Assembly (NCBI RefSeq): GCF_004341945.1
Contig: NZ_SMBP01000014.1
Coordinates: forward strand, 1 to 64,000
Reading direction: 5' to 3'
From: Longicatena caecimuris
GTDB lineage: Bacteria > Bacillota_I > Bacilli_A > Erysipelotrichales > Erysipelotrichaceae
Length of the DNA stretch: 64,000 nucleotides
The translations under genes were made by a program, and so were the position numbers. The stretch's first letter is position 1. Every line of letters starts with the position of its first letter. The notes under the pieces are model-generated. The model was not told the DNA's origin and made no database searches. It was given only the letters and a program-made list of their open reading frames with translations. Shown piece after piece: positions 1 through 3,749 of this stretch.

Positions 1-90
1 ACGATATGAAACTTGCAAGTCGCTCTTGGGTTCGTCGATAACTACGCCCCGAGGGATTTTCACCCTAGATATGTGGCATGCCCGCCACAC
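1..90 (-). mobile_element. Group II intron (class C-like), 5' end only
   Basis: Read on the minus strand from position 90 leftwards, the sequence begins GTGTGGCGGG and at once folds into a stem (TGTGGC / GCCACA around GGGCAT). It is followed by AGGGTGAAAATCCCT. This opening is characteristic of bacterial group IIC introns, which start GUGYG and carry a short domain I stem and an AGGGUGAAA-UCCCU hairpin. The intron starts a few bases past the terminator of the ABC exporter operon on the same strand, which is the known insertion preference of class C introns. Domains II-VI and any reverse transcriptase gene lie beyond the left edge. Confidence 0.82.
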
Positions 91-93
91 ATG

Positions 94-125
94 AAAAAGA
101 GCAGTTATTTATACGTAACTGCCCT
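94..125 (-). terminator. Rho-independent terminator of the ABC exporter operon
   Basis: A 10-bp stem (98-107 pairing with 116-125, one G-U pair) has an 8-base loop and four T residues on the minus strand. It lies 45 bases past the stop codon of the last ABC gene and directly before the group II intron boundary. Confidence 0.85.
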
Positions 126-169
126 TAATACTTCTAAAAAAGGTTACAAAGACATGGGAATCTATCTTA

Positions 170-2026
170 TCAATCTAATTCAAACTGTCCGGTATATAAT
201 TGATAATAACGTCCTTTTTGTTTTAATAGTTCTTCATGACTTCCACGTTCGATAATTTCTCCATGATCTAAGACCATGATGGCATCGGCATTGCGAACCG
301 TAGATAAACGGTGGGCAATCACAAAGACGGTACGATTTTGCATTAATTTATCCATTCCTTGTTCAATCAGTTTTTCCGTACGTGTATCAATAGAGCTAGT
401 TGCTTCATCTAAGATCAGAACTGGAGGATTAGCGATTGCTGCTCTGGCAATCGCAAGCAATTGACGCTGTCCTTGTGATAAGTTTGCTCCATCTCCACTC
501 AGCATCGTATGATATCCATCAGGAAGACGCTTAATAAAAGAATGAGCATTTGCCAGTTTTGCTGCCTCAATAATCTGATCCATGGTAGCATGTAGATTTC
601 CATAGCGAATATTATCCGCAATCGTACCCGTAAACAGATGCGTATCCTGTAATACGATGGACATCGAACGACGTAAATCATCTTTGGCAATGAGCTTTAC
701 ATCTATCCCATCATAGGTGATACTGCCACTTTCGATATCATAGAAGCGGTTGATCAAATTGGTGATGGTTGTCTTGCCGGCTCCGGTACTGCCCACAAAG
801 GCAATTTTCTGTCCGGGTTTGGCATATAGGTTAATGTCTTTTAAGATCGTTACCCCTGGTTCATAGGCAAAAACAACATCATGGAAACGGACATCACCAC
901 GCAGCAATACAAGTTCAATTTCACCATCATGTGGATGTCGCCATGCCCAATGTCCTGTATATTCCTGACATTCCTGCATACTGCCATCGGCTAACAGACG
1001 GACCCGTGTAAGGGTTACTTCTCCATTATCTACCTCTTCACATTCTTCCATCATATCAAAAATACGCTCAGCACCTGCCATTGCGGCTAACATAAAGTTT
1101 AACTGTTGCGTGAATTGGTTGATTGGCAAAGCTGTTTGACGTACATATACCAAATATGCGGATAATGCCCCAAGGCCAAGATTTCCAGCGATTGCGAAGA
1201 AACCTCCAATACATGCGACAATTGCGTAGTTGAAATATGACAATGACACAACCGTTGGTATAGTTCTTCCAGAATAAGTCAGTGCTTCGGTAGCTGCACT
1301 GCGCAATGCTTCATTACGGCGTTCAAATTCTTCAAAGTTTGGTTCTTCATGATTAAATACTTTAACGACCTTAACACCATCAACCATTTCCTCGATAAAC
1401 CCATTTAATTTTCCCATCGCTGCTTGCTGATGCGAAAAATAATACTTAGACTTTTTACTGTAATACTGAATCAGCAAATACATAATAATCATAAAAATCA
1501 TAACAATACATGAAAGCTGCCAGTTTAAAATAAAGATGGCAATTAACGTACCGATTATCATGGTAAAGCTTTGGATAAGATTATCAAAGCAGTTATTCAT
1601 TGCATCCTGTACCGTATCCAAATCGTTTGTAAAATGGCTCATAATATCCCCATGCGTATTTGAATCAAAGAAGCGTAATGGTAATTTCTGCATTTTCGCA
1701 AATAAATCCTGACGTATCTCCATAACGATCTTTTGTGAGGTATGCGTCATCAGCTGTTTGTAAATAGCCGTACATACAGCACCGCTGCCATACATCAAAG
1801 CCATAAACAGAATGGCCATGATTAAACCATCGTGATCATGAGGAACAATATAATTATCTATGATGGGTTGTAACATATAGGTGCCATATAGATTCGCTTC
1901 TGCACTGGCAATTACCAATACCCCAACAAACAACAAAGCAAAGCTATGATTTCCTAAATAATGCAGAAAGGTTTTTAAGGTTTTCCGCATATTTTGGGGT
2001 TTCTTTCCCGTAATCTGTTTAGCCAT
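170..2026 (-). CDS. ABC multidrug/lipid exporter, second half-transporter (canonical NBD)
   Basis: Half-size ABC exporter of about 618 residues: an N-terminal six-helix transmembrane domain, an extended linker, and a C-terminal nucleotide-binding domain with Walker A GSTGAGKTT (about residue 410), signature LSQGQRQ (about 517) and Walker B ending LDEATSS. The catalytic glutamate is present, so this subunit supplies the consensus ATPase site. ATG at 2026 is preferred because AGGAG lies 8-13 bases upstream and a longer reading would be buried in the neighbour. It overlaps the upstream ABC gene by 8 bases, indicating translational coupling. Together the pair resembles LmrCD/YheIH-type heterodimeric exporters. 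The substrate cannot be read from sequence. Confidence 0.93.
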   Translation of the reverse strand: MAKQITGKKPQNMRKTLKTFLHYLGNHSFALLFVGVLVIASAEANLYGTYMLQPIIDNYIVPHDHDGLIMAILFMALMYGSGAVCTAIYKQLMTHTSQKIVMEIRQDLFAKMQKLPLRFFDSNTHGDIMSHFTNDLDTVQDAMNNCFDNLIQSFTMIIGTLIAIFILNWQLSCIVMIFMIIMYLLIQYYSKKSKYYFSHQQAAMGKLNGFIEEMVDGVKVVKVFNHEEPNFEEFERRNEALRSAATEALTYSGRTIPTVVSLSYFNYAIVACIGGFFAIAGNLGLGALSAYLVYVRQTALPINQFTQQLNFMLAAMAGAERIFDMMEECEEVDNGEVTLTRVRLLADGSMQECQEYTGHWAWRHPHDGEIELVLLRGDVRFHDVVFAYEPGVTILKDINLYAKPGQKIAFVGSTGAGKTTITNLINRFYDIESGSITYDGIDVKLIAKDDLRRSMSIVLQDTHLFTGTIADNIRYGNLHATMDQIIEAAKLANAHSFIKRLPDGYHTMLSGDGANLSQGQRQLLAIARAAIANPPVLILDEATSSIDTRTEKLIEQGMDKLMQNRTVFVIAHRLSTVRNADAIMVLDHGEIIERGSHEELLKQKGRYYQLYTGQFELD

Positions 2027-3749
2027 GGAAACCAGCTCCTTCCTGTTGTGAAGTATAAATTTCCTGATAAATGGCATCCTTTGCCAACAACTCTTCATGC
2101 GTGCCGATGGCATGAATGCCTCCATCCTCTAAGATGATGATCTGATCCGCATGCATTACACTGGTGACCCGCTGCGCAATGATAATTTTTGTTGTGTCTT
2201 TTAAAGCTGCTAAGCCTTCTCGAATATGCGCTTCGGTTGCGGTATCCACAGCTGACGTGGAATCATCAAAAATTAAGACTTTAGGATGTTTCAGCAATGC
2301 TCTTGCTATGCAAAGACGCTGCTTTTGTCCACCAGATACATTAACACCGCCTTGCCCTAAATCACTTTCATATCCCTTAGGGAAATTAGGTAAGAACTCA
2401 TTTACACAAGCAACCTCACATGCCCAGTCTAGCTCTTCATCATCCGCCTGCGCATTTCCCCATAACAGATTTTCACGAATCGTTCCGGAAAATAAAGTAT
2501 TCTTTTGCAATACCATACCAATGGCATCACGCAAATGCTGTAAAGGATATGCTTTCACATTGCGTCCATCAATGGATACGATGCCATCTTCCACATCATA
2601 TAAACGTGGTATCAACTGTACCAAGGTTGTTTTTGCCGAACCGGTACCTCCCAGAATACCGATGGTAGAACCGGCTGGAATATGCAGATTGATATCACGC
2701 AGCACATATTCTTCAGCATCTTTCTTATATTTGAAATACACATGAGAAAAATCAATCGTTCCATGTTCAATATAAGCATCAGCTCCTGCTTCATCATGAA
2801 TATCCAATGGTTCATCCAACACTTCAATAATACGTTCACAGCTGGCAAGTGATCGTGTCAACATCAAAAAGACATTGGAAATCATCATCAAAGAATTCAG
2901 TATCTGTAAAACATAACTTAAAAACCCGGTCAATTCCCCGACTTTCATCGTACCAACGAAAATCATATTTCCCCCAAACCAGAGAATACATAAAATGGTC
3001 GTATACATAACCACCTGAAACAATGGCAGATTCCATACAGAAGTCCGGAATGCTTTTTCACTTGCATAGCGTAATTGCTCATTGACCTTTTGGAATTTGG
3101 TCTTCTCATACGTGCCTCGCACATAGGATTTCACCACACGTATGGCAATCAGATCCTCTTGAACGATGGTATTTACCTTGTCGATGGATGCCTGCATCAA
3201 ACGATATAAAGGGCCCACCTTATGAATGATCAGAAATAAACCAAGGCCCAATATCGGGATTGCTATCAAGAATACGATGGCTAGATATTTATTAATCGTA
3301 AAGGTTAAAATTAAAGCTGTCAGCAACATGACCGGTGAGCGAACAAAGGGCCGTATTCCATTGGAAATGGCTGTCTGCAAAATGGTAACATCACTAGTTA
3401 AACGGGTTATCAAAGAACTTGTAGAAAAATGATCGGTATTCGCAAAAGAAAATTCCTGCACTTTCCTAAACTCATCTTTTCGCAATTCTGCTCCGAATCC
3501 TTGCCCTGCCGTTGCCGCAAAGCGTGCATACAGCACCCCCAAAATCAGTGCCAGCAATGCACATGCAATCATCTTAGAGCCTTGTAACAAAATATATGTC
3601 TTATCTTGATTGGCAACCCCAACATCTATGATATCCGCCATTAATAAAGGAATGACCAACTCAAATACGGTTTCCGCAACCACACAGAAACAGCTTAGCC
3701 ATAGATATTTGCGATACTTATGCATATAAGGAAACATACGTTTCAGCAT
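2019..3749 (-). CDS. ABC multidrug/lipid exporter, first half-transporter (degenerate NBD)
   Basis: A 576-residue half-transporter with an N-terminal membrane domain and a C-terminal ATPase domain. Walker A reads GGTGSAKTT (about residue 368), the signature is VSGGQKQR, and Walker B ends FDDSTSA. Aspartate thus replaces the usual catalytic glutamate. Such a degenerate site in one partner and a canonical site in the other is the hallmark of heterodimeric exporters such as LmrCD and TM287/288. The gene follows the MarR regulator by 11 bases and overlaps the second ABC gene, so all three form one operon. The likely role is drug, bile or lipid efflux (inference). Confidence 0.93.
   Translation of the reverse strand: MLKRMFPYMHKYRKYLWLSCFCVVAETVFELVIPLLMADIIDVGVANQDKTYILLQGSKMIACALLALILGVLYARFAATAGQGFGAELRKDEFRKVQEFSFANTDHFSTSSLITRLTSDVTILQTAISNGIRPFVRSPVMLLTALILTFTINKYLAIVFLIAIPILGLGLFLIIHKVGPLYRLMQASIDKVNTIVQEDLIAIRVVKSYVRGTYEKTKFQKVNEQLRYASEKAFRTSVWNLPLFQVVMYTTILCILWFGGNMIFVGTMKVGELTGFLSYVLQILNSLMMISNVFLMLTRSLASCERIIEVLDEPLDIHDEAGADAYIEHGTIDFSHVYFKYKKDAEEYVLRDINLHIPAGSTIGILGGTGSAKTTLVQLIPRLYDVEDGIVSIDGRNVKAYPLQHLRDAIGMVLQKNTLFSGTIRENLLWGNAQADDEELDWACEVACVNEFLPNFPKGYESDLGQGGVNVSGGQKQRLCIARALLKHPKVLIFDDSTSAVDTATEAHIREGLAALKDTTKIIIAQRVTSVMHADQIIILEDGGIHAIGTHEELLAKDAIYQEIYTSQQEGAGFHG

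Follow-up and report, generated by a model that had tools for sequence, protein, structure and literature searches.

A multicopy group IIC intron immediately following an ABC-exporter operon terminator in Longicatena caecimuris

The window, i.e., the whole 64,000-nucleotide stretch of Longicatena caecimuris DNA analyzed here, opens with an ABC-exporter operon read from the minus strand, directly behind whose terminator another element begins, only to stop at base 1. What is this element, why is it cut off, and why does it lie exactly there? An original prediction, made from the letters of the window, was that it is a class C group II intron inserted by terminator-directed insertion. Our analysis makes it nearly certain that the window starts with the beginning of a mobile intron of class C (group IIC), which occurs at least ten times in the genome and sits here behind the terminator of the ABC-exporter operon.

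The junction and the broken copies

On the minus strand, a strong intrinsic terminator (126 to 97), whose stem has 11 pairs and an 8-nt loop, gives way to TTTCAT (96 to 91) and then to GTGTG from base 90. The intron thus starts as GTGTGGCGGGCATGCC at base 90, six bases past the terminator and in sense orientation directly behind the operon. The switch from terminator to GTGTG, predicted to occur within 8 bases, is hence real, with a gap of six bases. The features at this end of the window are:

1–90, minus strand: group IIC intron, initial 90 nt up to the contig end (identical sequence in other copies; 13 of 15 positions of the class C 5′ consensus)
91–96, minus strand: 5′ exon end TTTCAT between the terminator stem and the intron, a probable IBS1 (the sequence is observed; its role as IBS1 is inferred)
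97–126, minus strand: intrinsic terminator hairpin of the ABC operon (fold energy, terminator scan)
170–2125, minus strand: ABC exporter half-transporter, 651-aa ORF (Pfam ABC_membrane and ABC_tran)
2019–3749, minus strand: second ABC exporter half-transporter, 576-aa ORF (Pfam)

Folding of the 40 nt upstream of the intron gives −13.2 kcal/mol (z = −5.9), a value equaled by 0 of 200 shuffles. A simple terminator scan taken alone does not exceed chance (3 found vs. 3.9 expected in shuffles); the terminator call rests mainly on the hairpin energy and its ten-fold recurrence. An L20_leader-like match over the terminator was rejected (20.6 bits vs. a gathering threshold of 58.7). In window positions 1–3000, Rfam recognized no intron, since the models begin deeper in the element than the 90 nt present here.

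The intron is indeed truncated at base 1, as originally stated, but the limit is the end of a contig and not the edge of the window: the genome is a 2.95-Mb draft in 45 contigs, the window comprises bases 1–64000 of contig C14, and base 1 of the one is base 1 of the other. The intron stops there because the draft assembly is interrupted within a repeat. An identical 84–93 nt of the intron 5′ end lie at seven other contig edges (C3, C17, C2, C28, C26, C41 and C34); the end of C18 holds a 923-nt stretch of the same intron, opening with the same 5′ sequence; and the interior of C12 carries a 5′ end about 95% identical to that of the window. The genome therefore has ten 5′ ends of this family, in the window and nine other places, along with nine 3′ ends (on C25, C29, the right end of C14, C12, C6, C16, C21, C22 and C32). 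The family numbers at least ten copies, nine of which contain a break in the assembly; this multicopy intron explains where the assembly breaks. Flanks of up to 10 kb at the contig edges that bear the intron, including a 15-kb stretch around the C12 copy, were set against the DNA that follows the ABC operon in three relatives (G006, G051 and G089); no edge could be connected to the window in this way.

Contig C14 is itself bounded at both ends (window 1–90 and locus L024) by same-orientation copies of the same intron, and could be either a stretch of chromosome flanked by direct repeats or a circle carrying a single copy. The middle of the reverse transcriptase (RT), approximately residues 128–309 of the protein of the relative L087, is absent from the whole assembly. 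Adding 923 nt from C18, 425 nt from the right end of C14 and about 0.54 kb missing by L087 homology, we estimate a complete copy at about 1.9 kb.

One might ask whether the window copy is a dead relic, internally deleted or truncated, rather than a full retroelement. The genome does hold such remnants: the C12 copy (L022, minus strand) is 260 nt long, deleted between two GCAATA repeats such that the RT and most of domains I–IV are gone while both ends are kept, and an internally deleted copy of a second intron family lies on C1 (L212, approximately 885–1184), 300 nt long and again with both ends kept. Yet the 90 nt of the window match the multicopy sequence exactly, and the contig ends as far into the intron (84–93 nt) as the seven other 5′ edges do, as befits an unresolved repeat, whereas the C12 relic, at only about 95% identity, did not interrupt its contig. 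We accordingly hold this alternative to be improbable and, judging from these sequence comparisons, the window copy is probably full length, even though C12 shows that relics occur in this genome.

Insertion behind terminators

All ten 5′ ends of the window family lie 2–7 nt behind a terminator hairpin with at least seven Ts in the last 12 nt. The four nucleotides before the intron are TCAT in seven of these copies and TTAT, TATT or TGTT in the others. With thresholds set, after looking, at the weakest values among these ten sites (hairpin ≤ −5.7 kcal/mol and ≥7 T in the last 12 nt), 26 of 1500 random positions drawn from the window and not confined to intergenic DNA pass. Class C introns characteristically insert behind a terminator or an attC site, and the proposed terminator-directed insertion is thus borne out by ten of ten sites of the same element, which furnish a clean multicopy example of the phenomenon.

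The relatives show the same preference. An RT scan of genome contigs yielded 79 named loci, 41 of them usable for the terminator test (32 lacked the boundary pattern and 6 were too short, leaving out 38). Every one of the 41 relatives with a recognizable class C start has a hairpin of ≤ −5.7 kcal/mol upstream, vs. 211 of 615 control positions, and a hairpin combined with a T tail (≥5 T) is present in 28 of 41 vs. 43 of 615. GC-rich hairpins precede some of the 13 relatives that lack the T tail, e.g., those in Oligosphaera. In all 17 flanks measured, GC skew is positive on the intron sense strand, making it the G-rich one, as would be expected if the intron enters the lagging-strand template; this fit is confounded in that most genes and terminators share the same strand bias.

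By analogy with the family, the excised intron RNA together with its RT/maturase would recognize the single-stranded terminator hairpin and a short TCAT-like IBS1. The RNA would then reverse-splice behind the hairpin, and the RT would copy the inserted intron using the replication fork as a source of primer.

It could alternatively be argued that the terminator neighborhood is a by-product of selection, with insertion occurring anywhere and survival only behind terminators. Genome data alone cannot tell survivorship from targeting; against this, the ten copies lie 2–7 nt behind a hairpin and are not merely intergenic, with even the C12 relic in such a position, and published work on class C introns (PMC4424553 and PMC8919778) describes insertion at terminator motifs. 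Hence, we consider the selective explanation highly improbable and retain terminator-directed insertion.

The orthologous operon in the three relatives named above continues without an intron, into sequence and downstream genes that are not homologous to those here; a terminator-like hairpin follows the operon by eye in G006 and G051 and not clearly in G089. A loose comparison of these three operons found no empty site of this insertion, and there is no within-genus empty site because the genus holds only this genome.

Class C identity

The other copies of the same element bear out the group IIC identity through domain V/VI, the domain I core and both ends of the RT. A CGC triad in domain V is a difference that marks class C. 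All nine 3′ ends of the family possess a domain V/VI with this triad, ending in CCTACTCGAT, and the Intron_gpII model (RF00029), proposed at the outset as a check, scores 45.7 bits on these 3′ ends, i.e., not on the window copy itself. The suggested search for domain V and an RT likewise succeeded on the other copies, with nine instances of domain V/VI, the RT N-terminus (128 aa) on C18 and the RT C-terminus at the right end of C14, opposite the window start. The C18 copy matches the domain I core model RF02001 (group-II-D1D4-3) at 76.4 bits and RF01998 (D1D4-1) at 48.7 bits; we take RF02001 as a probable IIC marker in view of its occurrence together with class C RTs.

At the boundaries, measured against the class C consensus given in PMC4028801 (5′ GUNYGCCNRGCAUGG and 3′ CCUACYCGAU), the window intron agrees at 13 of 15 positions at its 5′ end, the two departures forming one compensated stem pair, and the 3′ ends of the family agree at ten of ten. 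Structural conservation points the same way: in domain V/VI of eight introns, one being the window family, both sides have changed in 10 of 26 pairs, and in the first helix among relatives 14 cells have changed on both sides, as many as in 0 of 500 shuffles, even if this helix is imperfect, with 72.9% of cells pairing.

In a search of the PDB, the best matches of the RT N-terminus are IIC RTs (5hhj, 6e-40; GsI-IIC, 1e-34), with LtrA at 1e-15. Its nearest named relative found, at 70% identity, is L087, a complete relative that encodes 416 aa with RVT_1 and GIIM and no other Pfam domains at the threshold used. The two pair in a tree of 117 RT rows (support 97/71), inside a clade (97/87) holding both PDB IIC enzymes included, 5hhj and GsI-IIC. 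Thus, the window family shares with class C introns (solved RTs 5hhj, 7uim and 6ar1) its boundaries, the domain V/VI CGC triad, the D1D4-3 core, the RT clade and insertion behind terminators, and differs, as far as found, by ordinary sequence divergence only: it is an ordinary class C intron at the expected kind of site, with nothing beyond the family norm. That another repeat, such as an insertion sequence or a REP-like element, shares a short IIC-like motif by chance has a negligible probability even with only 90 nt of the element in the window, given that the same 90 nt on C18 run into the domain I core and the RT start and that the family terminates in domain V/VI.

A second intron family behind terminators

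The 5′ end of a second family (GTGCGACAGGC or GTGCGTCAGGC) occurs on six contigs: C4, C27, C38, C39, C33 and C1 (loci L023, L213, L209, L210, L211 and L212, respectively). At all six sites, a hairpin that ends in CTTTTT comes immediately before the intron. The family carries AGC in domain V and closes with CCTACTTTCT at the 3′ end in five of the six copies and with CCTACTTGCT on C1. A relative in genome G057, with an RT 74% identical, also lies behind a hairpin; just 4 of the last 12 nt there are T. In the RT tree, the second family and this relative are joined with 100/100 support and fall outside the class C clade, the placement of the family among the non-C lineages having a support of 13/80.

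On C27 (L213, minus strand), tandem copies of approximately 118 bp, each with a terminator, lie downstream of two tRNA genes; two of them are empty and the third is occupied by the second family. The 3′ flank on C41 matches the sequence after the empty C27 copies. The RT of the C4 copy (L023) has an in-frame TAG, a codon absent from the visible stretch of the C27 copy; in L244, a relative of the second family on contig C16 of G057, the RT is interrupted by other DNA.

Rfam, PDB, plasmid and phage records and the tree yielded no class assignment for this family: its D1D4-4 scores of 33.6–37.4 bits in Rfam are below the gathering threshold of 49, and a scan of viral contigs with its RT gave no match. 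While the review PMC4424553 ascribes terminator insertion to class C alone, PMC8919778 reports introns right behind terminators of class C and of other IEP types, e.g., g6, U1 and U2; terminator use by a non-C family was accordingly dropped as a novelty. Because of that report, the second family, which resembles those introns in sitting behind terminators, is probably one of the known terminator-associated IEP types such as g6, U1 and U2, from which the window intron differs in being class C. It is doubtful that we are instead seeing two unrelated group II lineages that converged on the base behind terminators, with the second an undescribed terminator-targeting lineage outside class C. Having both families in one genome makes possible a natural comparison, on a small scale, of the way distinct intron lineages read terminators.
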